A stretch of DNA of 20,901 bases from the IMG/VR virus record IMGVR_UViG_3300025806_002075, positions 1 to 20,901 of that record; one strand, 5' to 3'. The stretch comes from a virus. A program made the translations under genes and the position numbers. Every line of letters begins with the position of its first letter. The stretch's first letter is position 1. Under the pieces are notes generated by a model that did no database searches, was not told the DNA's origin, and worked only from the letters and a program-made list of their open reading frames with translations. This document shows positions 1,152 through 18,047 of this stretch, in pieces.

Positions 1152-4100
1152 TTAGATTCCTAGTATTTTCTTTTCTTCTTCTTCTCTTAATAACTGAGAT
1201 GCTCTGCTAGGTTGAGCAAGATTAGGTGCTTCAAACTGTCCTTGTAAAGATTGTCCAGTTAAATCTATTGAAGCAGAAGCCAAGTCTCCAATAGGTACTT
1301 CTTGAGGTGCTTTAATATCTGTTCCTTGTAAAGCAAAGTTAAGTACATCTTGATTAACTTCACTAGGTTTAAATATACCTAGCATAACCAAGTCTCTGTT
1401 AGCTACCTTAGCAATCTTTAACTGTTCGCTAATAGCATAATCAGGAACTCCCAATGTTCTTGCATCTTCTATAGCTGTGTAAAGAGTTCTTAAAGAATTG
1501 TATCTGTCTTTGTTTGTATTGATGTAACCTTTAACAAAACTTTCTGCATCTCTTCTGTTATTTGATCTAAGCAATCTATTAAATTCATTAGTTGTTTCTC
1601 TTATAGCTCTCTTAGACTCTGCTGCTTTGTAATACAGAGATCTTTCTAGCTGTGGTTTAACAACTTTAATACCAGAGAAAGCTTGTACCATTGTCTCTGC
1701 TACATCAATAGGTTTTCCTTTTGGACTAATTAAATCTTCTTCTCCTGTAAAGACAGAGGCTGCAGCTGTTACAAAATCTTTAGGAACTATCTGTGTTCCT
1801 TCTGCATCAACTTGTACTGAAAAAGGCAGTGCTGTAGGTGCTATAGAATTAAAAACGTGAATCATTGATTTTAAACCCTTATCACCTAATAAATCTGATT
1901 CGTTATAAATAATTTTACCTGTTGATGTTTGACCAGATTGTGCTTCAAGCAAGGCGTTAGCACCTATACTTGTAGATAAAAAAGGATTTGCCATTTCTCC
2001 TACTGAATCTATTGTTGCATTACTTGCTATGCTTAGTAGACTAGCTTCGTTTCTATTGCCAGTAGCAACTGCATTTAATACAGCTCTAAATGGTCTTTGC
2101 AAATAATCATAGGGATTGGTGTAACTGTAATTAATAAATCCTGTAATATTTCCTTGTGCATCAGTGCTGGTTGGAATCATAGTCGCAGTCTTTTCCCAAG
2201 GTGCAGCAAAAGATCTTTTATATGCGTCTATCTGTTCTTGACTTGAACCAGTTAGGGCTAGACCTGCTGCGGTTAAACCTGCTGGAACTCCAACAGTAGT
2301 AGTTAGTCCAGACGTTAGTCTTCTCATTCCTACTTTTTGTAATTCTGCATTGTTACTTGCTAGTTCTTTAATACCTCTTGATATAGTGTTGCCAGTATTT
2401 CTTACTATCTCAGCAGGGAAAGCTGTAAAGTTACCTATGACTGGTATAAATTTTAATTGTTTTACTATCTCAGGAACTCTTGAGTAAGTGGGAGTTACAT
2501 TCAAAGCTATGTCAGCAGACTCTGCTTTAATAAATTTATCTAAAGCATCATCGCTAACAGATTTTAATTCACCAACATTGATAGTACCATCTTGTCTAAT
2601 AAGTTTTTGAATATCAGTATTAGAAAAATTCTTAGCAGCATTGACAGGAATAAAGGCATCATCAGTAGAGTCAGCTATAACCTTTGTAAGTTTTGCTTGT
2701 TCGCCATTCCAATTAATCCACCTAGCCGCGTTATCTGATCCTGTATAAATTCTTTCAACAGGTTTTAATGCTTTCTGTAATTTATTTGTAAGACCGTTTG
2801 ATTGTAATTTTTTCATCAAAGCAACATCTTCTATAGCATAAGAAGCTAAGTCAGCTATTTCTTCTAACTGCGTACCTCTTCCTACAACAATACCGTACTC
2901 TCTTCCTTCTTTAATATCTTTGTTGTATTTTGTTTTTTGCCTTGGATCAAAAACACCAGCAAAAGACTTTTGAAAAGTTTTTGTAAACTCAGCAGAAGGC
3001 CCAAGGTTTCCATTCATAGCAGCAAATAATGGGACACTTGTATTGTTTCTTATATGAGCACCAACAGATAACAAGGTTTTGTTATATTGTCCTACTGTTT
3101 TTAAACCTAACAAACCCTTGTAAACATTTTTTAAAATGTTAGGCATAGTATTCATAAAATCTTTTGATGATCCTGTAACAGCATCAACAAAAACTTTTGG
3201 TGCATAGGTATCTTGTAAAGCACCTTGCTTGTCATTAAATTTTACATAATCAACGCCGTCTATTGTAACTTCATCTCTTAGTGAAGGAATTTCTTTTCCT
3301 GTCTTTGGATCTTTTTTAGGAGCAATTTGTTTTCCTGTCTTTGGATTTATTTCAGGAGCTTTTAATACATTTATTCCTTCAGCTGTTAATTGATCAGGAG
3401 TCTTTAAAAAAGATGTGGTTCCTAATTGTTTTGCATTATCATTAATTAATCTTATATCATCATAAACTTTTATATTTCCTACTGAAGTAGCAATTTTAGA
3501 TATAGTAGAAGTAGCTGCAAAAGTCTCATCTACTAAAGCTTTTCTCCACTCAGATCCTTCTTTGTATGTAAGGGGAGTTATCTCACCTAAAGCTTCCCTA
3601 ACTTCAGGTAAGTTTTTTAATGTTTTTCCTTTTAGTAAGCCACCTTTTATATTGTTTACTAAAAGCTCTGGAGTTTCGTGAGGGTTTAAAGAGTTTTTAG
3701 GATTTCTTATATCATCAAAAATTTGTATTGCTTTAGATGTTCCAAGAGGATCACCCTCAAGTCCTGCTACTGTTTTAATTTTATCAATGGCTGCATCGTA
3801 TACTTCTTTAGATGGCTCAAAACCAGAATCATTTATGGCTCTGTAAAGAGTTGTTCCATACAAACCTCTGTTTTTAAGTAACGCATCTTTAAAATTTTGA
3901 TCTAAAGTTAAACCTGCAACAGTAGGTCTATCAGAAACTAAATCAAATAATAGTTTTTGTTCTAATTCAAATATTGTTTTATTGTTTTGAACTATAGAAG
4001 ATATTGTATTATTAGGATCTATTCCTAGAGCCTCGTAATCTATTTTGTTTCCTGATCCTTCAAAACTTTTAATCTTTTTTAAAGCTTCGTCTTGAAGTTC

Positions 4101-5102
4101 TTTTGCTTTAATTCTTTTTGCATCGTCAGCTAAAGAAGGAAACTGTCTTTCAACAGCAAGCAAAGGTGCTCTATAAGTTGATATAGATTTAACTAATTCT
4201 AAAGAGTCTTTATCATTTAATTTACCACCATTGGTAACAGCATCTTCCATTGTTCTTCTTATCTTATCTCCAGCATCAGCTATCTCTAATCCAAGATTAG
4301 ATGCGTAAGCTTTTTGTGTTTGAAATACATCTGATATTAATTTATTATTTTTTGTAGTTTGTTCAAAAGTTCCACCGTAACTAAAGTTTTTTCTTAAGTA
4401 ATCAAATAAACTTTTATCTGCTTTGGTTGCAGAAGCAAGAGCTTCATTTGGGCTAACTTTTTTAGCTAATGCACTCATGTAAGGTGCAATTAGATCTAAT
4501 CCAACACCAGCTGTTTTAAGAGTTCCTCCCACAACCTTGGGTGCAGCATAAACAAATGATGCTGTCTCAGCGAATACTTGCATTCTTTCTTTTAGTCTTG
4601 CAGCTGCGGCATCTCTGCCTGCAAGATTCTTAATTCTTTCTTCGTCACTTTCTTTATCAAAGATCATGTCAGCAAAAGTATCAACATCATCTGTAGCTAC
4701 AGCAGCATCGACTGCACCTATAGCTCCTAGTTGTTTTGCTTTACTTAATTTAGATAGAGCACTTGCTGTGCCAAGACCAGGTATACCAAACTGAGCAATC
4801 ATTTGTGCTGTTTTACCAGCAGTGCCTTCTACTTCAGGTTTAATACCTTCAAAAAATTCGTTTACATTGTCAGTTACTTCTGTATTAAATAGAAGATCAA
4901 TACCAGTTGTCGGTATGGTAGCAAGGCCTTGAGGTATAGAAACAACACCTGCTGCTATTCCTCTACCTATGTCTCCTGCTAAAGAACCAGATGATCCAGT
5001 TCTTTTTCTTTTCATTGATTTTTGTTTTGCTTTTTCTATTTCTTTAGGATCATTACTATCTACAAATAATTTTCTTCCATCCTCAAGAACCACTAAAGGC
5101 AC
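1152..5102 (-). CDS. Very large putative internal virion / DNA-ejection protein
   Basis: At 1316 aa this is the longest gene in the window. It uses a GTG start with GGAG about 8 nt upstream, directly after the stop of the 300-aa gene. The N-terminus (MPLVVLEDGRKLFV) is followed by a basic, Gly/Ser-rich stretch and Gly/Ala-rich hydrophobic segments around 45-140, then mostly charged helical sequence. A further Gly/Ala-rich hydrophobic stretch lies near 950-970. The last 25 residues hold RASQLLREEEEKK, a type of tail I associate with marine phage virion proteins. A 12-residue unit, NPKTGKQIAPKK / DPKTGKEIPSLR, is tandemly duplicated. No catalytic motif such as a transglycosylase was recognised. 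Size, position in the virion block and membrane-compatible segments suggest a capsid-internal protein ejected with the DNA. That is inference; a polyvalent protein of unknown role is the main alternative. Confidence 0.55.
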   Translation of the reverse strand: MPLVVLEDGRKLFVDSNDPKEIEKAKQKSMKRKRTGSSGSLAGDIGRGIAAGVVSIPQGLATIPTTGIDLLFNTEVTDNVNEFFEGIKPEVEGTAGKTAQMIAQFGIPGLGTASALSKLSKAKQLGAIGAVDAAVATDDVDTFADMIFDKESDEERIKNLAGRDAAAARLKERMQVFAETASFVYAAPKVVGGTLKTAGVGLDLIAPYMSALAKKVSPNEALASATKADKSLFDYLRKNFSYGGTFEQTTKNNKLISDVFQTQKAYASNLGLEIADAGDKIRRTMEDAVTNGGKLNDKDSLELVKSISTYRAPLLAVERQFPSLADDAKRIKAKELQDEALKKIKSFEGSGNKIDYEALGIDPNNTISSIVQNNKTIFELEQKLLFDLVSDRPTVAGLTLDQNFKDALLKNRGLYGTTLYRAINDSGFEPSKEVYDAAIDKIKTVAGLEGDPLGTSKAIQIFDDIRNPKNSLNPHETPELLVNNIKGGLLKGKTLKNLPEVREALGEITPLTYKEGSEWRKALVDETFAATSTISKIATSVGNIKVYDDIRLINDNAKQLGTTSFLKTPDQLTAEGINVLKAPEINPKTGKQIAPKKDPKTGKEIPSLRDEVTIDGVDYVKFNDKQGALQDTYAPKVFVDAVTGSSKDFMNTMPNILKNVYKGLLGLKTVGQYNKTLLSVGAHIRNNTSVPLFAAMNGNLGPSAEFTKTFQKSFAGVFDPRQKTKYNKDIKEGREYGIVVGRGTQLEEIADLASYAIEDVALMKKLQSNGLTNKLQKALKPVERIYTGSDNAARWINWNGEQAKLTKVIADSTDDAFIPVNAAKNFSNTDIQKLIRQDGTINVGELKSVSDDALDKFIKAESADIALNVTPTYSRVPEIVKQLKFIPVIGNFTAFPAEIVRNTGNTISRGIKELASNNAELQKVGMRRLTSGLTTTVGVPAGLTAAGLALTGSSQEQIDAYKRSFAAPWEKTATMIPTSTDAQGNITGFINYSYTNPYDYLQRPFRAVLNAVATGNRNEASLLSIASNATIDSVGEMANPFLSTSIGANALLEAQSGQTSTGKIIYNESDLLGDKGLKSMIHVFNSIAPTALPFSVQVDAEGTQIVPKDFVTAAASVFTGEEDLISPKGKPIDVAETMVQAFSGIKVVKPQLERSLYYKAAESKRAIRETTNEFNRLLRSNNRRDAESFVKGYINTNKDRYNSLRTLYTAIEDARTLGVPDYAISEQLKIAKVANRDLVMLGIFKPSEVNQDVLNFALQGTDIKAPQEVPIGDLASASIDLTGQSLQGQFEAPNLAQPSRASQLLREEEEKKILGI
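3294..3346 (-). repeat. Short in-frame tandem duplication in the 1316-aa gene
   Basis: The 17-bp sequence TTTTCCTGTCTTTGGAT (+ strand) occurs at 3294-3310 and again at 3330-3346, a 36-bp period. It encodes two copies of a 12-residue unit starting [ND]PKTGK. The frame is kept, so this is a local duplication within a linker rather than a regulatory repeat. Confidence 0.75.
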
Positions 5103-5104
5103 TG

Positions 5105-6007
5105 TTATTCTCCAGCTACAATCATCTCAGCTAATTGTGTTATGTCTCCGCCAGTTTGTTGAAACATTGCTAAGAAACTAATTAAATTTATTTCATTTCC
5201 ATTAAGATCAGTTAGCTTTCCATCTTTCTTGTTTGTTAGTTCTTTTCTAAATTGAGCTAATAAAGCAGCTGCTCCAGCTATTGCTGTTTGATCTATTGGG
5301 GAAGCACCAGCTTGAATTTTTTGTAACTTTTTAATATCTTCATCACTCATTGCTAGTAACTGTTCTTGATCTGTCATTGCATCTTCTTGTCTTGCACCCT
5401 CTTCCATAGCAGCTTGACCAAAGTCAGAGATAGCATTCCTTGGAACAAAGCCTTCGCTTGGTTGCATCATAGCTAAGAATCCTGCCATCATTTGTTTTGC
5501 AAACTCAGGATCTCTACTAACTTTTTCCATATAGCTTGATGGAAAAGCTTTTACATAATCAAGGAATACAGGTGATTCTCTTCCTGCTTCCATTGCAATC
5601 TCCATGGTTTTTTGTTTAAGAATATCTTTTAGTGCGTCTGAATCATTAACTTCTTTAAGTCCTGATACTTTTTCAATAGGAGGTGAAACTTTAGTTTTTT
5701 CATCATCGCCTGTTAGTCCCATATATAAACCTGCCGCTGGAACTCCACCGTAACCAGCCGCTCTAATTGCACCTGTTACTGCACTTCCCTCTGGTCTACC
5801 TGGATTTTTACCAATACTTCTTAAGGTTGATTGAATTACTTTTCCACTGCCAACAAAAGGAGCAACCATTTCTGATGGAATAACTTTAGGAGATGCTGGT
5901 TTAGTTTTAGTAATAGCTGTACTAGGTTTGGGCTTAGGTTTGGGTTTAGGCTTAACTTTTTTAATTAAAGATGCTATTCCTTGTATTGCTTTCTTTTTTA
6001 ATGCCAT
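5105..6007 (-). CDS. Hypothetical virion-associated protein with Lys-Pro repeat
   Basis: I do not recognise a family for this 300-aa protein. The basic N-terminus (MALKKKAIQG...) leads into five consecutive Lys-Pro pairs at 19-28, a rigid positively charged arm that could bind DNA or another virion protein. A Gly/Ala-rich stretch near 75-100 is followed by an acidic, Met-rich helical region (about 110-240) and a leucine-rich C-terminus. The ATG start has GGAG about 8 nt upstream and lies 2 nt after the previous stop. It sits between the 171-aa protein and the giant putative ejection protein and may be a second internal or ejected protein. Position is the only support for a virion role. Confidence 0.6.
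   Translation of the reverse strand: MALKKKAIQGIASLIKKVKPKPKPKPKPSTAITKTKPASPKVIPSEMVAPFVGSGKVIQSTLRSIGKNPGRPEGSAVTGAIRAAGYGGVPAAGLYMGLTGDDEKTKVSPPIEKVSGLKEVNDSDALKDILKQKTMEIAMEAGRESPVFLDYVKAFPSSYMEKVSRDPEFAKQMMAGFLAMMQPSEGFVPRNAISDFGQAAMEEGARQEDAMTDQEQLLAMSDEDIKKLQKIQAGASPIDQTAIAGAAALLAQFRKELTNKKDGKLTDLNGNEINLISFLAMFQQTGGDITQLAEMIVAGE
5924..5953 (-). repeat. 12-bp tandem repeat coding Lys-Pro pairs
   Basis: Two 12-bp units starting AGGTTTGGG (5924-5935 and 5936-5947) differ at one base and are followed by a half unit AGGCTT. They encode the Lys-Pro arm of the 300-aa protein. Copy number is likely to vary by slippage without breaking the frame. Confidence 0.7.
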
Positions 6008-6009
6008 AA

Positions 6010-6525
6010 TTATTGCTCCAACGTATAGCCTTCAGGCACTTCGTTATCTTCAAATAAATAATACTCTTCATCTACTGGATCATAATAAAAATAATTTCCA
6101 GAATCTTCATCAATATAAGCCACACTAGGATTAGTGTAATCTTCGCTCAAGCCTTCTTTGATTGCATCTCCAATGGTATAAGCAAGAGCTCCTCCAGCTG
6201 CTGTATTTGTTACTGGATTAGAAAGTTTAGATGCTGCGTTAGCAGCTTTTCTCATTTTATTTCCTGTGCTTAATGCTTTTATTCCAGCACCAGCTAATCC
6301 CAAACCTGGAATTGCCATCGCATAATCTAAGGGATTATATGGATCAAAAATTAAACCATCTCTACCGAAATATTTTGTCCCTGCTTCTCCACCCTCAGCA
6401 AATCCTTCTATGCCACGTCCTCTAAGAATATCTTTTTGAGTTACTTTGCCATCACCTGTTAGATCAGGAAAGCCACCGTCTTTTAATCTTACAGGAGCCA
6501 TGCCTGACATTATTCCTCTGTTCAT
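6010..6525 (-). CDS. Hypothetical virion protein with EF-hand/dockerin-like loop
   Basis: This 171-aa protein carries an EF-hand-type loop near its N-terminus, FPDLTGDGKVTQKDIL (19-34), with Asp at loop positions 1, 5 and 12 (D21, D25, D32). Calcium binding is therefore plausible. The loop lies between two DGG/GG motifs (KDGGF and GFAEGG) that recur in the 476-aa protein. A Gly/Ala-rich hydrophobic segment (about 70-120) could contact membrane. The C-terminus is acidic and Tyr-rich (about 130-171). Its ATG overlaps the stop of the S74 fibre gene by 3 nt (ATGA), so translation is probably coupled. I recognise the loop-plus-DGG pattern from marine phage virion proteins, but no function has been assigned that I know of. 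Confidence 0.65.
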   Translation of the reverse strand: MNRGIMSGMAPVRLKDGGFPDLTGDGKVTQKDILRGRGIEGFAEGGEAGTKYFGRDGLIFDPYNPLDYAMAIPGLGLAGAGIKALSTGNKMRKAANAASKLSNPVTNTAAGGALAYTIGDAIKEGLSEDYTNPSVAYIDEDSGNYFYYDPVDEEYYLFEDNEVPEGYTLEQ

Positions 6526-8078
6526 GAAAGAACCTTGGAGTAATCAACAGCATAATAACCATCTTTAACTACTACTGCATCTGGTTTAACTTCTAATACT
6601 TCTTGAGCTAAAACACCTTCCGTTGGTTCTGATTCTGCTCCAAGCTCCATGGCTTTATCATTCCAATCCCATGTGTACCAACCAATGTTAGGTTCAACTT
6701 CACCAATCTTTTTAATGTTAGTTTTTAATTCAACATCAGATATAGCAAATAAAGAAGCTATGGTTCCTGCCGCACCTAATGCTTTTGATGCACTACTTGG
6801 CTCTTGATAAGATCCACGTTGATAAGCACTTGTACCAGTACCACCAGAGAGTCCTCCCATTGGTGATCCAGCAAGTAATGCTTGACCTTGTTGTAGTCTT
6901 TGCATTGGCTCGTTCGCAAGTTGCTGTGCTCCTTGGAACTGTCTTGATAGTGCAGCTTGTTGAGTTGCTTGACCTTGTTGACCGAGTTGATTCAACATAT
7001 TGATTTGGTTTCCTAACATTCCTTGTCCTTTTTGTCCTAGACCTGCAATGCCTTGACCTATCTGACCAAACTGTTGTCCCATACCACTAGCTAATTGACC
7101 TAAGCCACCTAGTTGTTGTCCACCTTGCATAAGGCTAGAACCAAAACCACCTAGGGCTTGTCCTCTTTGTACTTGTTGTTGACCTAGACCAGCCATCTGA
7201 CTACCTAGTGCGGCCTGCTGACCACCTATAGCTGCTTGTTGTCCGCCTAAACTTGCTTGCATTTGACCTAATCCAGCTTGTCTACCTTGTTGTGATTCAA
7301 AGGATTGTCTTGCAGCATCTTGAGCTCTGCCAAATCCTTGACTTCTAAGAGCACCAACTGCTTCAGCGGCCCCTCTTCCTGTTTGTCTTGCTAATTCTTC
7401 TTGAGTTATCCTACCTCTTGATCCACCAAAGGCACCAGCGGATACAGCTCTATCACGTAGCCCTATGTCTTGTTTTGCTGATTGTCTGTTTATATCTTCT
7501 AATGTTTGTTGTACTACTTGATCTTCGTATGGATTATAAAAAGCAGATGAGCTACTAGGATCAAACATTTTAGTAGCACCCATTGCACTTTGTTCTGCTC
7601 TTTGTAATGCACCTATACCACCTGCTACAGTATCAGCTCCTGTACCTATCATCCTTTCTGCTGCATCTGAGAATCTTCCAGCACCTCTTGCTAAATCAGA
7701 TCCTTCTCTTTGAAAGCCCATACCTTCTTCAATACCAGCTTGAGCCTGTGGCACAAAGCCCATGGCTTGATCTAGTGCATCTTCTTGTCTGCCGTATAAT
7801 CTACCAGCATCTTCTATATAAGGTTTAAATTCTCCTAAACCACCTGCTGCTTGACGTGCTTGTATTTGTAATGGTGTAAGACCTGCTGTTTGTTCTATGG
7901 GTATATCTCTAGCTCGAGATATTAGTCCTTCGTATTCACCAGGAGAGCCAAAGTAGGAAGCAAGAAGTCTTCTTGAGTAGTCCTCCATGTAAGGAGATAT
8001 AAAAGAATAACCTGTTTCTGGAGTTGTTATTACATCTGCTTCTGGCCCTTGTTTAGTTTTGCTACTAAATATTCCCAT
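6522..8078 (-). CDS. Fibre/tail protein with S74 self-cleaving chaperone domain
   Basis: This 518-aa structural protein ends in a short peptidase S74 (intramolecular chaperone) domain. It begins ISDVELKTNIKKIG, with Ser447 and Lys452 in the S-D-x-x-L-K arrangement, and continues with GVLAQEVLEVKPDAV and a YYAVDY motif. In the S74 family this domain promotes trimer folding and is then cut off before the Ser. Residues 1-170 are helical and Gly/Ala-rich. NRQS...RDRAVSAGAFGGSRGR (about 198-223) resembles a region seen in other phage proteins of this type. Residues 270-353 have Gly at every seventh position, probably a trimeric shaft. Its start shares one base with the preceding stop (TAATG). A fibre or tail-tip role is likely; its receptor is unknown. 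Confidence 0.75.
   Translation of the reverse strand: MGIFSSKTKQGPEADVITTPETGYSFISPYMEDYSRRLLASYFGSPGEYEGLISRARDIPIEQTAGLTPLQIQARQAAGGLGEFKPYIEDAGRLYGRQEDALDQAMGFVPQAQAGIEEGMGFQREGSDLARGAGRFSDAAERMIGTGADTVAGGIGALQRAEQSAMGATKMFDPSSSSAFYNPYEDQVVQQTLEDINRQSAKQDIGLRDRAVSAGAFGGSRGRITQEELARQTGRGAAEAVGALRSQGFGRAQDAARQSFESQQGRQAGLGQMQASLGGQQAAIGGQQAALGSQMAGLGQQQVQRGQALGGFGSSLMQGGQQLGGLGQLASGMGQQFGQIGQGIAGLGQKGQGMLGNQINMLNQLGQQGQATQQAALSRQFQGAQQLANEPMQRLQQGQALLAGSPMGGLSGGTGTSAYQRGSYQEPSSASKALGAAGTIASLFAISDVELKTNIKKIGEVEPNIGWYTWDWNDKAMELGAESEPTEGVLAQEVLEVKPDAVVVKDGYYAVDYSKVLS
7020..7271 (-). repeat. Twelve Gly-anchored heptads in the fibre gene (21-bp period)
   Basis: The coding sequence for residues 270-353 of the S74 protein has Gly at 271, 278, 285, 292, 299, 306, 313, 320, 327, 334, 341 and 348. 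The residue before each Gly is usually Leu, Ile, Met or Phe. The DNA copies are diverged, so the period is kept at protein level. This was counted residue by residue. Confidence 0.85.
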
Positions 8079-9508
8079 TATCTGTATTTCCTCATCATTT
8101 GTTCGCCTTCTTTTTGTAGAGCATACATTTGACGTGCACCTTCTAGGCGTTGTTCGTATTCGTCTTGTGGGTTAGCACCTGCTGCCACACCCATACCTCT
8201 AACTGCTTCAGCATTAACAACAAACTCACCATCACTTAACATGGCTGGTATCTTGTCGCCACGCTCTCCACCTGGGCCTGTAATTAATTCGCTTCTATCT
8301 ACAAATTTACCGTCAGCTGCATATAACTGACTGGCTATTCTTCTTGGTTGTAGATCATCTACATAAGTAGCTTCTTTAGGAGGTGCCACTAATGGTGAAA
8401 AAGATGTGCCTTTCATTTGTGAATAAAGTTTTGATACTTCACTAGGGTAGAATCTGTAAGCATCTGGTGTTTCATCTCTAGCATCAATAGATATAGATGC
8501 TCCAGGAGTTTGAAAGCCATAACTACTACGACCTGGTGCACCTGATCCTCCATAACCTTTTGCTAATCTAGCTGCTGCTTGTTTAGCTTTTTGTTCTGCA
8601 ATCTCTTCTTCTGTTGGTGGTGTATAGCTATATCCTCCACCTCCACCTGGTAGGTTTATAATTCCACCAAAGTTACCAAAGTCTATATCACTAAAATCAA
8701 AATCATCAAACATATAATCATCAAAATTAAACTCTCTTTCACGTTCAAATTTTCTTTCATCAGCCATGCCACCTCTTCTAAATCTTTGTATGTCAACCTT
8801 TGATGCTCCTGTTCCTTTGATCATTTGACCTTCAGTCTGACCATAGGGTTCTGGCATAAAACTTTGTGCTTGCTCAAATCTATTAGCCATTTCTTCTGCT
8901 TTTGTTTTTCTAATAGCTTCATTAATATTTTCTGTATCGTTTGCAGCATCTGAAATAGAGTCATATTCTTTACCATTCAATACATATTTTCCAGTTGTAG
9001 CATCATATTCAGGTGCTACAGATTTTGATAAACCAAAAGAATCTTTGTCTTCAAAAATATCATCTTCAAAATCTATATCCAAAATTCCACCATTTGCAAA
9101 ACCAGCTATACCACCATCAGCAAGCTGAACAGAAGTATCTCTTTCTAAACTTTGTTGAAATTTATTAAAATCTTTTTGAGCATCATCAACAGCTTCAGGA
9201 TTACCAGGTTTTATATCTGGAGTATTTATGTCAGATGAACCTATAGAAAAACCTTGCATGACTTTATTTTCTTCATCTCCTCCACTTAAACCACCTAAAG
9301 CACTAGCAATTTTTCCAAAATCCATACCTCCACCAGTACCTCCACCAGTACCTCCACCAACACTACCGCCAGTAAAAAAATTAACTATGCCGCCATCCAT
9401 GTAACTTGAAACATCAAAATCTTTATCATCTCTAAGTCCAGGAAGTAATTTTTTTAATAATGCTATTCCACCTAATGTTTTTAAAATTTTCTTGTGTGAT
9501 TTCTTCAT
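8078..9508 (-). CDS. Putative virion protein with DGG motifs and IPAMLSDGEFVVNA motif
   Basis: This 476-aa protein is mostly low-complexity: a Gly/Thr repeat at 47-61, an Asp/Phe-rich stretch around 265-285 and a Gly-rich loop near 290. Two copies of an xDGGI...F...GG motif lie at 37-48 and 130-141, with a related RRGGM near 245. Near the C-terminus is GDKIPAMLSDGEFVVNA (417-433), which I recognise as recurring in marine phage tail and virion proteins; its function is unknown to me. The N-terminus is basic. It lies directly before the S74 fibre gene, sharing one base (TAATG), so assembly or attachment of fibres is possible. No Shine-Dalgarno precedes its ATG, but a TATAAT does. The virion assignment rests on motifs and context. 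Confidence 0.6.
   Translation of the reverse strand: MKKSHKKILKTLGGIALLKKLLPGLRDDKDFDVSSYMDGGIVNFFTGGSVGGGTGGGTGGGMDFGKIASALGGLSGGDEENKVMQGFSIGSSDINTPDIKPGNPEAVDDAQKDFNKFQQSLERDTSVQLADGGIAGFANGGILDIDFEDDIFEDKDSFGLSKSVAPEYDATTGKYVLNGKEYDSISDAANDTENINEAIRKTKAEEMANRFEQAQSFMPEPYGQTEGQMIKGTGASKVDIQRFRRGGMADERKFEREREFNFDDYMFDDFDFSDIDFGNFGGIINLPGGGGGYSYTPPTEEEIAEQKAKQAAARLAKGYGGSGAPGRSSYGFQTPGASISIDARDETPDAYRFYPSEVSKLYSQMKGTSFSPLVAPPKEATYVDDLQPRRIASQLYAADGKFVDRSELITGPGGERGDKIPAMLSDGEFVVNAEAVRGMGVAAGANPQDEYEQRLEGARQMYALQKEGEQMMRKYR
9326..9359 (-). repeat. 12-bp tandem repeat coding Gly-Gly-Gly-Thr
   Basis: The unit ACCTCCACCAGT (+ strand) is repeated perfectly at 9326-9337 and 9338-9349, followed by ten matching bases. 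It codes for the Gly/Thr stretch of the 476-aa protein and is a likely slippage site that preserves the frame. Confidence 0.8.
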
Positions 9509-9564: not shown

Positions 9565-9900
9565 TTATGAGGTTGTTACATTAATTGATATGTTTCCATC
9601 TGTCTTAACAGAAACAGATCCTAGTGATGCAGTTGTCTCGAAGCCTTGTGGATTCTTCGGAGTGTGTAACTGTACCCATTGGTTGCCTATATATACTTGT
9701 AAAACACCAATAGATGTATTCCATATTACATCACCTACGTTAAAAGCTAAAGTAGAAATTTGAGAATCATTAAACTGTGGTGTTGAGCTAGGATCGAATG
9801 TTCCTAGGTTTAACTCAAGGATTCTTATTAATCTGTTGAATACATTAGCATCAACCTCACCACTTGCTTGAGGTAATCTACTTGCAAGAAGCTTGGCCAT
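9565..9900 (-). CDS. Hypothetical small virion-associated protein
   Basis: This 111-aa protein has a helical first third (LASRLPQASGEVDANVFNRL) and a beta-rich remainder with a short motif VGDVIWNTSIGVLQVYIGNQW. The C-terminal 25 residues are Thr/Ser/Val-rich. No known catalytic motif is visible. The start shares a base with the stop of the stabilization protein gene (TAATG), which points to co-translation with a tail or portal-proximal component. The GVLQVYIGNQW segment resembles the small domains often seen at the ends of phage tail or fibre proteins, so an adaptor role is possible. I do not recognise a named family. Confidence 0.6.
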   Translation of the reverse strand: MAKLLASRLPQASGEVDANVFNRLIRILELNLGTFDPSSTPQFNDSQISTLAFNVGDVIWNTSIGVLQVYIGNQWVQLHTPKNPQGFETTASLGSVSVKTDGNISINVTTS

Positions 9901-11765
9901 TATCTTCTGCCGTCAGTTCTAATATCAATCCTGTTTGCACCTAGTCTCCATTTAAAACCAGTTCTTGATCCTGTTGCCGCATCATCATCTGATTCAACTC
10001 TAAGAACAAGCTGTCTGCCTCTAGCACGTGTAAACGCTTGTTGAGTAGTGCTTGTAATATTGTTAGTTGAATTAGTTGTTAAGCTTTCTCCAGGAAAGTT
10101 ACGAGTTTTTAATACAAAATTAATCTGTCCATCTGTAGGTGCTGTGCCAAAAAACTTAACATCTGGAATAATTCTGCTAACAAAACCCAGTTGATTACCT
10201 TCTTCTATATCTATATCACCAGACTCTATGAAAACATTATCCATAGGTGATCCGTCATCATCATCAGTGCTTTCATGTATATATACATAGCCATCACCAT
10301 CGCTGTCTTTACCTGTAGCTCTAGGCTTTTCAAATACACCATCATCTATCCATGCTGTTCTTGATAGATTGCCTATGCTCCATGCACCTTCTAAGTAGTT
10401 ATAAGTTACATACCTATCTATCTCTTCAGAAGAAGAAGAACAATAGAACCAACCAACCTCATTAAATTCTCTGTTAGTAAAAGCTAATGTTTTAAATGAT
10501 TGAGTAGTATTAATATCATCTAATACATAATTTAATACGCTACAAACTAATCTTTTAACTGATCCTGAGTAAGTATAGAAGCCATCTCTAGCCATCCAAT
10601 AGACACCATCAGGTGCATTAATCATGCCACTAGGAGATATAAGACCTACATTTTCATTAACTAGGTTTAATCCAAAAGTAAACGGAGCACCAATAAATTG
10701 CATACTATACAAAGAAGTATCAGTCCAAATAAGTATCTCTTGTCTTGATCTTAATCCGCCAACTATCTGTGATCCAGATGATAGCCTTAATGATCCAGCT
10801 GTATTGGTAGCTGTTGGTTCCCAATTTGTAACACTTTCTTGATCTGAGAAAGCTATAAGTAAAGGATCTATAGAACCAGACCTAGAACTACCAACAATAG
10901 GATCAGCACCTAGTACAATAACATGTCTATCAATGTCACTTACTATAACTTGTAAACCTTTTGTTGGTGCAAGATTAGCACCACTTAAAGTGCTAATAGC
11001 TACAGCTCTATTATCTTCACCACCAGACTCATCCCAGTAATAGATACTACCTGCTCTTGGATTAATAATTAAATCTTCACCAAAAGCATCGTGTGACCAA
11101 AGCCTTAGCTGTCCTGTTTCTGATAGTGCGTTTGTTGATCCCCAACCACCCGCACCCCATGTACCTGCACCCCAACCTGTTGATGGTACATACACATCTA
11201 ATCCTACATTTATTTGATAGGCTGCATCAGCTCCTGATCCGCCATTACCTGTATCACTTCCATTTGCTGTAGCTGTTGCTGTAAAAGTAAATGTATCTGC
11301 ACTTGGTATAGAAGTTATTTGATACTCTTTATTTAAAACTGTTGCTGTTATGTTACCGCCAAGACTTACTGCACCACTAATAGTTACAAAATCATTTACT
11401 ACAGCTCCATGATCATTGTCAGTTGCAGTTATAGTAGCACTACCATTTGTTGCTGCAAAAGTAATGCCATTGGTTGTTGTAGCTCTAATTGGAGTTATAT
11501 CAGAATAGTCTGATCCACTATTAACATAATATTTCCAAGTAGTTCCTAGTCCTAAATATTTTGTATACTCTAAATCAACCCATGCTAACAATGCTCTGCC
11601 TGTTCCTAAGTAAGAGCTGTTGTTTGATTTTTGCCAACCTCCTATTTTTTCTGGTAATCCTTTTCTAAATCTAACTAAATTACCGTCAGCCCAGCCGCCT
11701 TTGTCCATAAGATCAGTCATCTCTTTGTTGATTCCTGGGGTAAATTGTAATTTACTTAACGGCAT
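9900..11765 (-). CDS. P22 gp10-like packaged-DNA stabilization / tail accessory protein
   Basis: The start is placed at ATG 11765, giving a protein that begins MPLSKLQFTPGINKE. A longer frame runs to a TTG at 11795, but GAGG lies 6 nt upstream of 11765, only one base separates that ATG from the lysozyme stop, and this N-terminus fits the family. The KLQFTPGINKE...GGW.DGN.VRFRKGLPEKIGGW pattern (about 4-44) is typical of large marine-podovirus structural proteins related to P22 gp10. The remaining 580 residues are beta-rich, with many Trp, Gly and Asp, and suggest repeated blades (for example VYWMARDGFYTYSG and GWFYCSSSSEEIDRY). P22 gp10 plugs the portal and keeps packaged DNA in the head. The structural role is fairly sure; the precise P22 equivalence is less so. 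Confidence 0.7.
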   Translation of the reverse strand: MPLSKLQFTPGINKEMTDLMDKGGWADGNLVRFRKGLPEKIGGWQKSNNSSYLGTGRALLAWVDLEYTKYLGLGTTWKYYVNSGSDYSDITPIRATTTNGITFAATNGSATITATDNDHGAVVNDFVTISGAVSLGGNITATVLNKEYQITSIPSADTFTFTATATANGSDTGNGGSGADAAYQINVGLDVYVPSTGWGAGTWGAGGWGSTNALSETGQLRLWSHDAFGEDLIINPRAGSIYYWDESGGEDNRAVAISTLSGANLAPTKGLQVIVSDIDRHVIVLGADPIVGSSRSGSIDPLLIAFSDQESVTNWEPTATNTAGSLRLSSGSQIVGGLRSRQEILIWTDTSLYSMQFIGAPFTFGLNLVNENVGLISPSGMINAPDGVYWMARDGFYTYSGSVKRLVCSVLNYVLDDINTTQSFKTLAFTNREFNEVGWFYCSSSSEEIDRYVTYNYLEGAWSIGNLSRTAWIDDGVFEKPRATGKDSDGDGYVYIHESTDDDDGSPMDNVFIESGDIDIEEGNQLGFVSRIIPDVKFFGTAPTDGQINFVLKTRNFPGESLTTNSTNNITSTTQQAFTRARGRQLVLRVESDDDAATGSRTGFKWRLGANRIDIRTDGRR

Positions 11766-11766
11766 A

Positions 11767-12210
11767 TTAAACCTCGTGCCATTCCTTGCCTTCAAATAGT
11801 AAGGCTTCTGCTTCTCTACGTCTTATAAGTCCTTCAAGCACTTTGCCACCAGCTTTATTCCATCTTTTAATTTGTGCAGGCACATTATCAAAATCACTTG
11901 AGTTCAATACTTTAAGCATAGTCGAAGCTTTTAAGTTAGCAGGCCCTAGGTTAAATACCCAAGATACCAATGCATCAAATTGATTTTGATCAAGATCAAC
12001 AGTAACGCTATCTTTAACATAACCTTCAAACTCTTTTATATCTTGATCTAATATTTCTTCTGCTTCTCTTTGACAAATTAAATCACCTTCTTTAACGCCA
12101 GCAGTATGACCATATCCTATTGTCCATACACCTGCTGCACATTTGTAAGCATTGTATTCAACACCTTCAAACTTTTTAATTAAACTTAATCCTTCTTGCG
12201 ATATATTCAT
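11767..12210 (-). CDS. GH24 (T4/lambdoid-type) phage lysozyme, endolysin
   Basis: This 147-aa enzyme cleaves the glycan strands of peptidoglycan at the end of infection. The active-site segment is KKFEGVEYNAYKCAAGVWT, with Glu15 and Thr30 in the T4 Glu-8-Asp-5-Thr spacing; the middle position is Cys24 instead of Asp, a variant also found in other GH24 endolysins. WVFNLG, LIRRREAEALLF and the final EGKEW match the family. The frame extends upstream to an ATG at 12273, but AAGGAGAG lies about 9 nt before the ATG at 12210, and the extra 21 residues overlap the o-spanin gene. The mature form has no signal peptide or anchor, so it should need a holin to reach the wall. It lies directly after the spanin genes. 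Confidence 0.9.
   Translation of the reverse strand: MNISQEGLSLIKKFEGVEYNAYKCAAGVWTIGYGHTAGVKEGDLICQREAEEILDQDIKEFEGYVKDSVTVDLDQNQFDALVSWVFNLGPANLKASTMLKVLNSSDFDNVPAQIKRWNKAGGKVLEGLIRRREAEALLFEGKEWHEV
11772..11775 (-). promoter_or_regulatory. Shine-Dalgarno fixing the stabilization-protein start
   Basis: GAGG on the minus strand, 6 nt before ATG 11765. It supports that ATG over the TTG at 11795, which would overlap the lysozyme gene by 29 nt. Confidence 0.75.
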
Positions 12211-13086: not shown

Positions 13087-13094
13087 CTTTCCTC
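13087..13094 (-). promoter_or_regulatory. Shine-Dalgarno for the XhlA-like gene, overlapping the cyclase stop
   Basis: GAGGAAAG on the minus strand precedes ATG 13084 and includes part of the cyclase TGA (13093-13095). Translation of the two genes is probably coupled. Confidence 0.7.
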
Positions 13095-14841
13095 AAATTG
13101 TATATACGTTTAAAGATTTTTCTTTACCTTTAACTTTAATTGCTTCTAAAGATTTTAACTCAAAACTACAGTTTTTGGCAGTCTCTTCTCCTATAAGTAT
13201 ATCAACTCCAGCTTCTTTTGTACCAGACTCAAGTCTAGCTGCTATATTTACGCAGTCTCCGATAGCTGAAAAGTCAAATCTAGTATCAGATCCCATGTTA
13301 CCTACCACAGCTGTACCAGTATTTACTCCCACCCCAATAGCAATCTCATGTGATAATTCTTTATTAAGTTCTTTTATACGATCCTGCATTTCGATAGCAG
13401 TCTTTACTGCTTTGTCTTCGTGATCTTCTAAATCTAAAGGTGCTGAGAATATAGCCATGCAAGCATCACCAATAAATTTATCTACCATGCCTCCATTTTT
13501 TTGTACGCATTCTACTTGTACTGTTAATGCTTTGTTCATTATCTCAGTAACTTCTTCTGGTTTTAGTTTTTCTGAAAGACTGGTAAAGCCTCTAACATCT
13601 GTAAACAAAAATGTAGCGTATCTTTTTTCGCCACCAAGTTTTAATAGATTAGGATTATCTTGTAATTGTTTAACTTGTCTTGGATCAAGGTAATGTTCAA
13701 ATTGTTTTTTAATTAATTGACGTAACTTAAACTGTTTTCTAAAGTTTAAATAGAAAGCTATAGCACCAGTAATGAATTGTGATACAAAAGTCCACGAAAA
13801 ATCTATTAAATAACCCTTTTGAATGCTATAAGCTCCTGTAAGGCTTGTAGTAAAGAGTAAAATTACAGCTAGACTTACGCCTTTAGTTATACCAAGATAG
13901 TTAATTACAAGCCATGTCAACGACACAAATATTGCAAAAATTAATATTTCCAACGCAAGAGCAAAATCTGGGATAAAAGGAGAGTTTTCTAACAAAATTG
14001 ACTCAGATAATGCTGCTTGAATTTTATGTGGCTCTAATAATCCAACCGGAGTTGCAACTTGCGGCATGATTCCTGGGGCAGTGACTCCAACAAAAACAAA
14101 TTTACCTGCTACATCCATTTCTTTTAATGTTGTTTGTGGTGTATTAACCCAACTAATCCACTTACGACCAAGACTATCTGTTTTGACTGGTGGTATTCCT
14201 CTGACTGATATCTCTTGTATACCATTATCATTTGTAGTGATAATGTAAGTTTTAGCACCTGTTAATACTTTTAAGACTTCTGTGCCAAAAGAAGATACAT
14301 ATCCATCTGGTGTTTTTAATAATAATGGTATTCTTCTAACTAAATTATCTATATCAACCGGTGCACTTGCTATACCTTGATTTGATTGATCTTGTAAGAT
14401 ATCAATATTTTGTATAACGCCTGGTGTAAACATACCACCTATATCATTACCTTTTATGACTGTTCCAGTTGTTTTAGGATACTTACCATTTCCGTTTTCA
14501 AACATAGCCAGCACAGATGGTGCATAACCTAAAGTAGTAGCAAAGGTTTCATCACCACCCATACGATCAGCTTGTGGAAATCCTATAACCCAACCAACTC
14601 CCATAGCCCCTGCATTGATAAGATCTACTTGAATTTTTGCAAGACTTCTTCTAGGGAATGGCCAACCTCCTTGCTCTGATACATCGTTTTCAGTAATGTT
14701 TAATATTACAAAATTACCGCTTGGCTCGGGTGTTGTTACAAAAGCGTCAAATATTTTTAACTTAAGTATTTCTGTAGGGGTGCTTTGAAATATTAAAGGT
14801 AGTGATAGTAATATAAGTATAGGTAATAAAAGTTTATTCAT
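13093..14841 (-). CDS. CHASE2-domain membrane class III adenylate cyclase
   Basis: This 582-aa protein has a membrane helix at 3-18, a periplasmic CHASE2 sensor (about 25-290, with KLKIFDAFV and [13 protein letters not shown]), three membrane helices (about 293-316, 320-338 and 347-364), then a cytoplasmic class III cyclase (about 407-582). Metal-binding Asp415 ([10 protein letters not shown]) and Asp459 (KFIGDA), substrate Lys455, Ser525 (FDFSAIGD) in the Thr/Ser position of class IIIb enzymes, and transition-state Asn532 and Arg536 (VNIAAR) are all present. It should be active and make cAMP from ATP when the periplasmic domain is triggered. The gene overlaps the methyltransferase stop by 8 nt and sits between it and the lysis cassette. 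A FecR-domain gene lies one gene upstream, a pairing I know from bacterial CHASE2-cyclase loci. The ligand is unknown. Such an enzyme is very unusual in a phage. Confidence 0.93.
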
Positions 14842-14846
14842 TAATT
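14831..14846 (-). repeat. 16-bp direct repeat, copy at the cyclase start
   Basis: AGTTTATTCATTAATT (+ strand; minus AATTAATGAATAAACT) contains the cyclase ATG. An identical copy lies exactly 670 bp away at 15501-15516 and contains the methyltransferase ATG, so both proteins begin MNKL. The flanking bases differ on both sides. Confidence 0.9.
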
Positions 14847-15511
14847 CTTTTTTTAGCTATATCAAAATATTCTTTTATTGCTTCAAATCCTATAAAATTT
14901 CTGTTGCTATTTACTGCAACATAGCCTGTAGTTCCTGATCCCATATAAGGATCTAACACTGTTTTTGCATCAGGAAATACTGCAAGCATATCAGCAACAA
15001 ATTGTTCTGGAAAAGCTCTCGTATGTGAGCCACGAGTTCCAACAGGCTTCCACTCTGTCCAATCAAAAACATCGTGTTTATTAATTGTATTAATAAGTTT
15101 TGTTTTAGGGCTTTTAGTTAGCCAGTAAATTCTTTCTGTCCAAGGATAAAATCTTATTTTATCAAAATTTTGGCTTCTATTTATCCATACTAATTCTTGT
15201 TTAATAATAAAATTACTTTTAAGTAACCATTCGTAAGGAGATATTTGAATTCCTTTTTTAATTCTATTTTTATGATTATAAATCATACTTCCATCATCTT
15301 TTAAAACTCTAAAACATTCATTTAAAAGTTTTATTTGTGTTTCTTGGTATTCTTTTTCAGGCAAATTATCGTTGTATGCTTGATGTCTTTTGTTACCAGT
15401 ATGATGGCTGTTGCCTAAATTGTAGGGTGGGGATGTAATAATAATATCTATAGATGAGTTATTTATTTTTTTAAAAGAATTAAAACAATCGTCTAAATAT
15501 AGTTTATTCAT
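14834..15511 (-). CDS. Solitary beta-class DNA methyltransferase (N4-C or N6-A)
   Basis: This 225-aa enzyme should transfer a methyl group from S-adenosylmethionine to a base in phage or host DNA. The catalytic motif IV, TSPPYN (26-31), precedes motif [11 protein letters not shown] (187-196), an order typical of the beta class. The Ser before PPY suits N4-cytosine or some N6-adenine enzymes, so the base is undecided. HTRAFPEQF (about 162-170) is the usual motif X region. No restriction enzyme lies next to it; protection from host restriction or an epigenetic role is possible. The gene sits exactly between 16-bp direct repeats, and by eye it is more A+T-rich than the curli genes. It splits the FecR and cyclase genes and looks like a late insertion. 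Recognition sequence unknown. Confidence 0.9.
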
Positions 15512-15516
15512 TAATT
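15501..15516 (-). repeat. 16-bp direct repeat, copy at the methyltransferase start
   Basis: AGTTTATTCATTAATT (+ strand) is identical to 14831-14846. This copy also holds the FecR stop (TAA at 15511-15513). Recombination between the copies would remove the methyltransferase and leave the FecR stop directly followed by the cyclase start. Confidence 0.9.
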
Positions 15517-16704
15517 ACTCTGAGTTATTTTTATAATACTACCATTTCCACCATTTATTTTAATTAAATTAGAAGTACCATCTTGTATGAAGATTACAGT
15601 ATAGCTTCCAGAAGAATCTATATCTACTCTAGCTGTATCGCTAACACTACGCATAAGTGTTAATACTTCTCCTGTTATAAAAGATGTTATCTGCGTGCCT
15701 AAGTCTTGACCTAGTTTAGTACCAACAATATTAGTAGATGTAGCGTCTTGTGCTAACTGATCTTCTTGTTGTATTTCTTGTAGTGCGTCTATGACATCTA
15801 GCAAATCTTCCAGGAAGTTTACATCAAGATAGTTTATATCTAACTCTGTAAACTCTAGTTCTTTTTCTGAGTCTAAAAAATCTTCTTCTAAAAAGTCCTC
15901 GTCTAAACCATCAAAGTCTAATATGTTTTTCTTTTTGGTTTGTGTTGTTTCTTCTATAGCCACCTCTTCTTTAGGTGGATTAACAATAAGCATATTATCT
16001 ATAAGGTCTAGTGTTAGGTCTAAGATTACAGGTGAGCTAGGTGATTTTTCAAAAACATCTACCGTTGTAGCTTCGTAAGGTTTATTAAGTGTAACTGTAC
16101 CCATAGCTGTAGTTACTAATATCTCACCACTAGAATTACCAAATTCATCTGGTAAAAGTATCAACAACGACCTGCCGATTTCATCTACGGTAACTGTGAA
16201 ATCAGTACCACGAATTGCTATGTTTGCTGTGGGTGTTTTAAGATCTATATTGTTTTTATCTATTTTGTTTAGACCGCCAGTAATAAACCTAGCTGTACCA
16301 AGACCAAAGGTAATAGCCATTTTAGATTTACTAGGGTTAGGATCAAAGATGTATTCGTCTATGGTGAGCTGAGAGTTTTCTGTAAGTCTTACCTTGGAGT
16401 CGTCTAGGAACGTAATAGCCATACGACCATTGGTAGTAATTGCTTCATCATTTTGTTGTATATCAAAAGACTCTTCTGCTTGATAAGGCTTGTCTCTTAC
16501 TATTTGTGCTGAACCATTTAGTTCAGATATGTTTCCTATATCAACAGCTTGTGGTTGTTCCGCCATCGTTCTGAACGACACAAACAGTACCGTTAGAACC
16601 AGTAGAGTTAATCTGTAACCAATCACTAGCAAGAGTTGATGACTGTATGATATTGAATGTTCTACTGTTTCCTGTTTGGTCGAGATAGAAGTAACCACCT
16701 GCAT
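15511..16704 (-). CDS. FecR-domain envelope protein with acidic linker and curlin-like tail
   Basis: This 397-aa protein has a hydrophobic export signal or anchor at 31-44 ([14 protein letters not shown]). A FecR domain follows (about 55-215; [19 protein letters not shown], then [18 protein letters not shown] at 158-174). An acidic linker (260-320) repeats short units such as [12 protein letters not shown]. The last 30 residues ([18 protein letters not shown] then [11 protein letters not shown]) look like curlin repeats. FecR domains sit in the periplasm and relay or sense envelope signals; here no sigma factor or TonB receptor is nearby, and the likely partner is the CHASE2 cyclase. ATG 16704 has AGGAAG about 7 nt upstream. 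An ATG at 16566 would lose the export signal. The chosen start overlaps the curlin-repeat gene by 164 nt. FecR is sure; the exact N-terminus is not. Confidence 0.85.
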
Positions 16705-17257
16705 ATCCGCTTCCTGTAAAGTTTACTGTGTTGCTATCTCCATCTACATCTACATAGTTAGTAGCACCATCATAGTTTATATCAAAATCAAATGTGTTGC
16801 TGTCACCATTTATAATCCAGTCTAAATCAAGAGAACCTGCAAGTGCAGATGTTCCTGTATCTAAGGTAAAAGTATTAGAGCTACCAGTTACGTCTACGTT
16901 ATAATCTGAGCCATCAATACCATAAGTGTCTGTAGGATCCCCTTGAATAGTAAAGGTATTGCTATCTCCATCAAATTCAAAAAAACCTGTAATATTATCA
17001 CCTAGAATATCTCCTAAAAATTTATTGGTATTACCTATTTGGTTTATATCTAGTGTTAAGTTTAAGCCATCTAAATCTAGTGCTGTAAGCGTTCCTGCAA
17101 CAGAGTTTAGACCTCCAATAATGTTAGATGATCCTAACTGTTCTAAGTCTATATTTGCTGTGGCACCGCTTTGGTCTATATATATTTCGTTATCAGCCGC
17201 GTATAGCACTGACACATTCATCAGTACAATTAGGCTCATTAATTTTCCAATATCCAT
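16541..17257 (-). CDS. Secreted curlin-repeat (CsgA/CsgB-like) protein
   Basis: This 238-aa protein starts with a signal peptide (about 1-20, LMSLIVLMNVSVLYA) and then consists of about nine repeats of a hydrophobic-x-x-x-G-x-x-N-x-hydrophobic pattern. Examples are IDQSGATANIDL, INQIGNTNKF, FDGDSNTFTI, VTGSSNTFTL, INGDSNTFDF, VDGDSNTVNF and [10 protein letters not shown]. The anchoring Gly residues are mostly 22-28 residues apart (31, 42, 75, 97, 125, 151, 173, 196, 220), close to the CsgA period of about 22. Early repeats keep the curlin Gln (DQSG, EQLG, NQIG); later ones are Asp-rich. Two Cys lie at the end (226, 238). AAGGAAGGA precedes the ATG inside the csgG-like gene. It is the likely cargo of the CsgG/CsgF pore and may form an amyloid-like fibre; that is inference. 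Confidence 0.75.
   Translation of the reverse strand: MDIGKLMSLIVLMNVSVLYAADNEIYIDQSGATANIDLEQLGSSNIIGGLNSVAGTLTALDLDGLNLTLDINQIGNTNKFLGDILGDNITGFFEFDGDSNTFTIQGDPTDTYGIDGSDYNVDVTGSSNTFTLDTGTSALAGSLDLDWIINGDSNTFDFDINYDGATNYVDVDGDSNTVNFTGSGYAGGYFYLDQTGNSRTFNIIQSSTLASDWLQINSTGSNGTVCVVQNDGGTTTSC
16710..16715 (-). promoter_or_regulatory. Shine-Dalgarno supporting the long FecR start
   Basis: AGGAAG on the minus strand lies inside the curlin-repeat gene, just before ATG 16704. The ATG at 16566 has no comparable site, so the longer FecR form with its export signal is preferred. Confidence 0.5.
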
Positions 17258-18047
17258 TTGTAATTCCTTCCTTAATTGTTTGTAATACAGCCGTTTCTAT
17301 AGCTGTTTGTAAGGCAATATTAATAGATTCGTTTCTTACTAAACCGTTTTCTATTTCAACAAGTTCTGTTGAATCGGTTATAAACCTAAATACATCTTGA
17401 TCTATAGATGCACTTAATATTGTTTTGGTTACAAGAACCTCTAGCAGTACCTTTCCTGTACTGACGGAAACTGTGCGTAAAGATATGGTTACGGTGTCTT
17501 GCTTGTATTGCCTAGACATTCCAATGCCTAAGTATCTAGCACCTGCACCACCAGATTTTACGTTGCTTTCGTATGATATCACGCCACCTTGCATTATCAA
17601 ACCTGCAAATAATAGATCTGGTAGCTTTTGTTTATTTTTATTTTCTTGTCTAGCACTCCTAATAATCTGTCTTTCTTTGGTTACATTGTCTAAACCAACT
17701 CTTTCAACCACTTCAAAAAAACCATCATATCTACTACCAGCGTGTTTTAAGGCTCTAATTAAGTATGCGTCTGGTGCCTGGGTTACTGCTGATGAAAAAG
17801 TTGCGTACGAACTATTACTTCGTCTTTGTCCTGTTTGATCTGTGAAAGAAGCTGCATAAATAGCTACAACTGGTTTTTTTTTGTTAGCTGTTTGTATGTT
17901 TGCTAGTTCAGGAACAAGTAATGTTCCTATCGTTGGCTTTTCTATCTTTTGTAATGGGGGTAAGTTGTTTTCTAATGGATCTATTATTAATGCACAGCTA
18001 GAAAGTAAAGCTACCAATAGGAAGGGATATAGTTGTCGTATTGCCAT
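17193..18047 (-). CDS. csgG: CsgG-like curli secretion pore lipoprotein
   Basis: This 284-aa protein has a lipoprotein signal ending LLSSC (Cys18), so it should go to the outer membrane. Family motifs run in the E. coli CsgG order: PVVAIYAASFTDQTGQ (59-74), FSSAVTQ (84-90), FFEVVERVGLDNVTKERQII (110-129), SYESNVKSGGAGARYLGIG (158-176), SLRTVSVSTGKVL (189-201) and KTILS...DVFRF (208-222). CsgG forms a nonameric pore that exports unfolded curli subunits. The Phe of the constriction loop is kept (Phe84), but the Asn before it is Thr. Length matches the family apart from a short Cys-containing tail (274, 278). The gene overlaps the csgF-like gene by 50 nt and the curlin-repeat gene by 65 nt. No CsgE-like gene is visible. 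Confidence 0.95.
   Translation of the reverse strand: MAIRQLYPFLLVALLSSCALIIDPLENNLPPLQKIEKPTIGTLLVPELANIQTANKKKPVVAIYAASFTDQTGQRRSNSSYATFSSAVTQAPDAYLIRALKHAGSRYDGFFEVVERVGLDNVTKERQIIRSARQENKNKQKLPDLLFAGLIMQGGVISYESNVKSGGAGARYLGIGMSRQYKQDTVTISLRTVSVSTGKVLLEVLVTKTILSASIDQDVFRFITDSTELVEIENGLVRNESINIALQTAIETAVLQTIKEGITNGYWKINEPNCTDECVSAIRG
17265..17273 (-). promoter_or_regulatory. Strong Shine-Dalgarno for the curlin-repeat gene inside csgG
   Basis: AAGGAAGGA on the minus strand lies about 7 nt before ATG 17257, within the csgG-like coding sequence. It supports this start and suggests high translation of the putative cargo protein. Confidence 0.75.

Follow-up and report, generated by a model that had tools for sequence, protein, structure and literature searches.

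The window analysed here, that is, the whole 20,901-base stretch of IMG/VR record IMGVR_UViG_3300025806_002075, is a virus record in its own right; a 48,007-base contig encodes two of its proteins, of 476 and 171 amino acids (aa), at 100% identity. These proteins belong to a gene block in the order 631 aa (stabilization-type), 111 aa, 476 aa, 518 aa, 171 aa, 300 aa, and 1316 aa. An initial annotation pointed to a glycine motif of the form DGG...F...GG in the two open reading frames (ORFs) and proposed that it was a docking, cleavage, or membrane-insertion tag common to otherwise unrelated virion proteins. The minus strand does encode all four strings on which this proposal was built, with MDGGIVNFFTGG and ADGGIAGFANGG belonging to the 476-aa ORF and KDGGF and GFAEGG to the 171-aa one. 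The motif itself is ordinary. The EF-hand-like loop that the same annotation mentioned in passing is not: the conserved element is the 21 residues between the two half-motifs of the 171-aa protein, hereafter the cassette (FPDLTGDGKVTQKDILRGRGI; Table 1).

Sequence, copy number, and carriers of the cassette

The cassette consensus is FPDL[TN]xDGx[VI]TxAD[IV]LKGRGV. A scan of 2.9 million viral contigs with DLTGDGKV yielded at least 120 loci, and at 121 of the 123 loci examined (120 from the scan and three from other searches) the pattern falls within an ORF of at least 40 aa; the residues outside the search pattern are kept as well. The converse scan, with ADILKGRGV, is blind to the loop and added at least 83 newly seen loci, all 83 of which are preceded by a loop of this kind. 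The leading F, P, and D are present in every one of these 83 sequences, as are D at loop position 5 and T at position 9, with position 3 occupied by N in 47 and by T in 36; a strict expression for the loop fits 79 of them, and the other four deviate at one position. These two scans, and the GFADGG[IM] scan described below, give lower bounds.

With the cassette masked, the pooled loci (at least 203) fall into 53 carrier clusters, and the consensus residues are retained in nearly all of the 53 representatives (F49, P51, D53, L52, D53, G53, T53, D53, L52, K49, G52, R51, G48, and V50). The cassette occupies an N-terminal place in 17 of these carriers, a middle place in 21, and a C-terminal place in 15. 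Among 40 representatives, synonymous differences affect a median of 58% of the shared codons (range 0–95%), so that it is the peptide that is kept and not the DNA.

Each of 16 records of 31–118 kb, picked for holding a copy, contains a single cassette match. The exact pattern is present once in 21 of 22 records, eight of which are common to the two sets, and twice in one (G013); a short locus (L429) also holds two copies. The single copy in all 16 whole records is at odds with the initial picture of several tagged proteins in one virion. We regard the existence of a conserved, mostly single-copy cassette that is swapped between carriers as well supported.

Alternatively, the carriers could all be orthologues in a single family of small basic late proteins that evolves fast around the cassette as its conserved core, and the cassette would then not be a moving module. 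A single copy per record fits one orthologous gene, 30 of 38 representatives have an isoelectric point above 9, many carriers are short and glycine-rich, and an SU10-adaptor-like gene lies no more than about 3.4 kb from the carrier in 11 of the 14 records that have both. This explanation, however, has to accommodate clearly different carriers, namely, an 837-aa protein with a tape-measure-type segment (L329), proteins of 1221 aa (L319), 506 aa (L291), and 396 aa (L374), and the 171/708-aa family (L279 and the window), along with placement of the cassette at the start, middle, or end of the carrier and its presence or absence between intact flanks within one family. We consider a single family somewhat unlikely.

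Among 50,697 cultured phage records, the sole good cassette match is HTVC027P gp44, whose gene precedes the capsid gene and comes four genes after that of the terminase large subunit; the matches in HTVC103P and HTVC104P are at the chance level (E value of 5). A search of 84,980 cellular genomes for exact FPDLTGDGKVT, which covers the T form and not the N form, returned two matches (L383 and L384), both on contigs of marine metagenome-assembled genomes. By eye, these two resemble phage contigs in such genomes. The partial records G004 and G007 gave no cassette match. In the open-licence literature, we found nothing on DLTGDGK or LKGRGV, with KGRGV appearing in unrelated titles only, and no phage case comparable to dockerins or to the motif; gp44 is not named in the available part of the HTVC027P transcriptome paper (PMC12753301).

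Pfam scans of 150 neighbour proteins (the first 150 of 220, from 97 loci among which related contigs recur, so that the counts are not independent) identified SU10_adaptor 14 times, GTA_holin_3TM 11 times, and SU10_portal five times. The corresponding counts among 147 control proteins (of 190, from contigs of other phage types, three of the first 150 having been omitted without a rule) were one for SU10_adaptor and two for SU10_portal, and terminases were no rarer in the control than near carriers. PHROG matches of the neighbours add major head, head-tail adaptor, and portal proteins. The L329 carrier is encoded between the portal and major head genes, the L374 carrier adjoins a T4-type major head protein, and the L319 carrier lies within a phrog_3287 block. 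Carriers often, but not always, neighbour head genes.

These neighbourhoods bear on another possibility, in which the cassette has its role outside the virion, either by attaching to a host factor or at a stage after entry, with a calcium-dependent host protein as one conceivable target. A conserved host partner would fit the constancy of the cassette among widely differing phages, and some carriers have no head-gene neighbours. The genes near carriers, however, are skewed towards adaptors, portals, and holins, and we view a role of this kind as improbable.

Two further features were noted in passing. Runs of small lysine-rich proteins with a shared start resembling MATVKKxKKAQxG occur at L400:4010-6048 and L421:8106-10518, with the cassette in one member per run. 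Near SU10-adaptor-like genes, basic proteins of 62–63 aa that consist of repeats, each about 12 residues long with KGG at its end (GTKYMSKGGA), are encoded at L043:12025-12216 (minus strand) and L047:9969-10157 (plus strand).

Glycine strings in mosaic late proteins

Because both patterns used to count the glycine strings were defined post hoc, from strings already seen, the shuffle figures overstate the surprise: the compact form [DN]GGx(0-6)FxxGG occurs twice in the window ORFs against 0.03 expected, with none of 2000 residue shuffles reaching two, and the looser core [FYLM]x[DNEK]GG six times against 2.4 expected (reached by 68 of 2000 shuffles). Both compact copies lie within the 476-aa ORF. 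Taken alone, the 171-aa ORF has two looser cores (0.20 expected; 84 of 5000 shuffles) and the 476-aa ORF three (0.42 expected; 37 of 5000). The motif described initially as shared is thus borne out for the 476-aa strings and not for the 171-aa protein, which has no compact motif and instead carries two half-motifs 21 residues apart.

The description of the two proteins as unrelated neighbours is only partly right. The relatives of the 171-aa protein are modular, with lengths of 143, 170, 262, and 265 aa, or 676–701 aa when fused to the 300-aa protein, and begin alike (MNxGIMSGMxP), with or without a piece of about 88 aa that terminates in FADGGISN and with or without an EF-loop piece, before ends that differ. 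In L008, L010, L012, L014, and L037, the 171-aa and 300-aa proteins form one protein, with DGGIIGFAKGG joining the parts. A 668-aa protein (G004/L026/L052) combines a 171-like start, the segment between the two motifs of the 476-aa protein (46% identity over 116 aligned positions, query residues 32–142), and a 300-aa-like end.

We also considered glycine motifs as module borders. Of the 336 distinct internal BLAST ends in the full set of core-bearing proteins, 63 lie no more than 8 aa from a glycine motif compared with 46.9 expected (12 of 1000 draws reach this value), a result that we treat as weak because the ends come from related pairs. Clear single cases of such borders are G004, L035, and L018.

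Alignment of 14 sequences of the 476-aa family, including the window, shows that the last 140 residues are rigidly kept and that the first 300 are hypervariable. Motif 1 is near-invariant in these sequences (G40 invariant, M37 and G39 nearly so), and motif 2 is present in five of the 14. With the tape-measure C-terminal module (phrog_25241, phrog_17300, and others), the 476-aa protein shares the segment GPGxxxxDKIPAMLSDGEFVVNAxAV. It matches these families within residues 401–442 only, where a tail tape measure protein would be expected to match over most of the family; it sits in an ejection-type block and not in an obvious long-tail gene set. This likeness concerns the glycine motifs and not the cassette. 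In phage DSL-LC04, FANGGIASLAKGG stands shortly before INGPGTATSDSIPAMLSDGEFVF.

The viral scan with GFADGG[IM] found at least 120 stretches compared with 87 in all for the scrambled control DGGFAG[IM]. The string is inside an ORF of at least 40 aa at all 80 loci examined, compared with 63 of 80 for the control, and at 39 of the 80 loci a regular expression detects tape-measure-type signatures after it; the other 41 lack such signatures, although some look similar by eye. Two AlphaFold2 models, built from shallow alignments, were poor (mean predicted local distance difference test score, pLDDT, of 39.9 and 36.4), with pLDDT below 50 in the DGG...GG segments of one of them, which fits flexible chains without proving disorder. 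In L092 and L111, GFADGGMSRRTFLKIMAALASFPVVGK consists of the glycine motif followed by a stretch that, by eye, is like a Tat-type signal, inside phage proteins of 616–728 aa.

In our reading, the DGG...GG strings serve as flexible hinges of glycine within late proteins that are mosaic and change fast. Low-complexity glycine linkers, together with leaders of tape-measure-type C-terminal modules, very probably suffice to account for the motif, given the consistent placement of GFADGG[IM] in ORFs, its frequent tape-measure-type context, the hypervariable N-terminal 300 residues of the 476-aa family, and the mostly unstructured models. These models are nevertheless too poor to prove disorder, and linkers leave the conserved cassette between the strings unexplained.

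We consider it very improbable that virion proteins share the motif itself as a tag for docking, cleavage, or the membrane. In favour of such a tag are the near-invariance of motif 1 and the occurrence of the full motif in five of 311 ORFs (1.2 expected), all in the late block. The equal occurrence in non-virion proteins that the initial annotation named as refuting the tag was thus not seen, albeit in a small sample that spans two related contigs along with portions of the genomes of four cultured phages and in which the late block was judged by eye from gene position. The patchy retention of motif 2, the low pLDDT, the absence of the compact motif from the 171-aa protein, and the commonness of the motif in tape-measure-type proteins of many phages, often as a lead-in to the module, argue against it, and the homologues give no support to cleavage or membrane insertion.

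Likeness to calcium loops and a possible docking role

The cassette has the ligand pattern of an EF-hand loop in the 53 representatives: D at position 1 in 53, T (41) or N (12) at position 3, D at position 5 in 53, G at position 6 in 53, and D at position 12 in 53. The search patterns predetermine part of these counts; in the converse scan, this holds for position 12 alone. With EF-hand and Dx[DN]xDG loops, it shares D1, D5-G6, a hydrophobic residue at position 8, D12, and N or T at position 3. It differs from EF-hand loops in being an isolated loop in variable proteins, with T prevailing at position 3, and in the EF-hand_5 results: scans of eight records gave one match, in G014, off the cassette. 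A phmmer search of PDB returned weak matches to EF-hand proteins (best E value of 0.021). A published structural search for such calcium loops (PMC3123361) accepted any of D, N, S, and T as the second acidic residue. The cassette probably binds calcium.

Among known modules, the cassette resembles the Dockerin type I repeat (PF00404), with which it shares one loop of the DxNxDGx[VI]xxxD type followed by a short segment and which serves, on many carriers, as a docking module. The best and only Dockerin_1 match falls on the cassette in seven of eight records, with no record of the eight scoring above the cut-off. The cassette also differs from Dockerin type I in having one loop rather than two repeats, its own FP before and LKGRGV after the loop, and no cohesin found alongside. 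By these tests, the cassette is not a dockerin; it would work, if at all, like half of one.

The internal head proteins of phage T4 carry an N-terminal capsid-targeting sequence that is cleaved and is present on several proteins of one virion. The parallel would lie in one short peptide directing different proteins into the capsid; the difference lies in that the cassette can take any position in its carrier and, in the 16 records and G013, was found once and twice per record, respectively, not as a tag on several proteins of the same virion.

We tentatively propose, with slightly less than even confidence, that the cassette is a calcium-responsive docking peptide on interchangeable carriers, distinct from the glycine hinges. 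The cassette would bind calcium through its EF-hand-type loop and, by way of the invariant FP and LKGRGV around the loop, would dock the carrier to one conserved partner. The carrier would be a mere flexible mount, which would explain why the carrier changes and the cassette does not. In the window's lineage, this mount would be a protein of the genome-ejection block and, in several other lineages, the product of a gene adjoining the portal, adaptor, or major head genes; given these locations, our leading guess is that the cassette has to do with assembling the head or delivering the genome, and we infer that docking takes place in or near the virion. The docking function first ascribed to the glycine motif is not supported for that motif, and the wider idea of a small docking-type element survives in the form of the EF-hand-like cassette found in many carriers. 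A GG follows the cassette within 15 aa in 96 of 121 carriers compared with 35% of random windows.

Several observations weigh against this proposal. The carrier clusters were made by BLAST on proteins that are often short and lysine-rich, so that some may be diverged relatives, and at an E value of 0.1 the 38 clusters of the first carrier set collapse to 29. Upstream of the cassette, GG is only mildly enriched (55 of 121 carriers versus 30%). EF-hands mostly have D or N, not T, at position 3; Pfam scans of the carriers found no curated calcium-binding family above the cut-off; and cohesin (PF00963) has no match in any of 12 records at E values up to 1, although the partner may be a host or unrelated protein. 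The L400, L408, and L421 carriers are encoded amid small lysine-rich genes, and the identified L421 neighbours are ribonucleotide reductase and recombinase, not head proteins. On the contig represented by L035 and L017, the 171-aa homologue is missing exactly the EF-loop piece, with intact flanks, and no cassette match was obtained in DSL-LC04, HTVC023P, or CRP-901, all complete relatives, so that the cassette is not essential across the lineage.

A broader version, in which the calcium-loop peptide is a lineage-crossing docking key of aquatic phages, carried about once per genome on an interchangeable mount and switched between low-calcium cytoplasm and high-calcium water, strikes us as unlikely; after release, such a switch could, for example, fix an internal head protein or an ejection protein in position.

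Many phage proteins without known function evolve so fast as to be unreadable, and a fixed 21-residue element offers a handle on them. The cassette is indicative of a single conserved partner, lends itself to peptide synthesis, and is present in a cultured phage (HTVC027P gp44). Should the docking proposal be borne out, phages would have their own equivalent of the modularity seen with dockerins; should it not, the cassette keeps its value as a marker, one that goes unreported by current family libraries at their cut-offs.

Other genes of the window

The annotated phages nearest to the window by the 631-aa protein include DSL-LC04 (identity in Table 1), the Roseobacter phages CRP-901 and CRP-902, and the pelagiphages HTVC027P and HTVC023P. 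The equivalent places in DSL-LC04 are annotated as stabilization protein, tail tape measure protein, and DNA transfer protein. Ejection proteins are the subject of PMC8954989. By eye, the Peptidase_S74 end of the 518-aa protein is absent from the L009 homologue (445 aa) and present in that of L017 (596 aa).

Table 1 Features of the cassette locus and the surrounding gene block in the window
Feature	Position	Strand	Basis
EF-hand-like cassette FPDLTGDGKVTQKDILRGRGI	6409..6471, aa 19-39 of 171-aa ORF	-	pattern scans
Upstream half-motif KDGGF, putative glycine hinge before cassette	6469..6483, aa 15-19 of 171-aa ORF	-	
Downstream half-motif GFAEGG, putative glycine hinge after cassette	6388..6405, aa 41-46 of 171-aa ORF	-	
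171-aa ORF, cassette carrier	6010..6525	-	relatives modular
Motif 1 MDGGIVNFFTGG	9365..9400, aa 37-48 of 476-aa ORF	-	
Motif 2 ADGGIAGFANGG	9086..9121, aa 130-141 of 476-aa ORF	-	
Tape-measure-type C-terminal module GPGGERGDKIPAMLSDGEFVVNAEAVRGMG	8189..8278, aa 411-440 of 476-aa ORF	-	PHROG tape-measure families at aa 401-442
476-aa ORF: N-terminal part variable, glycine-rich; C-terminal part conserved	8078..9508	-	alignment
518-aa ejection-type protein, C-terminal Peptidase_S74 chaperone domain	6522..8078	-	
300-aa protein; in relatives fused to 171-aa protein	5105..6007	-	
1316-aa virion structural / DNA-transfer-type protein	1152..5102	-	phrog_22602; DSL-LC04 annotated DNA transfer protein in equivalent place
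631-aa stabilization-type (gp10-like) virion protein	9900..11795	-	phrog_3287; 40.6% identity to DSL-LC04

A curli module that includes FecR and adenylate cyclase has been described in pelagiphages of the HTVC023P type (PMC9599517), and a cluster at 13093-18525 of the window is a further example. This cluster encodes a CHASE2 and nucleotide cyclase protein (582 aa), FecR (397 aa), CsgG (284 aa), and CsgF (175 aa), with a 238-aa repeat protein without a Pfam match in the place of the curli subunit.

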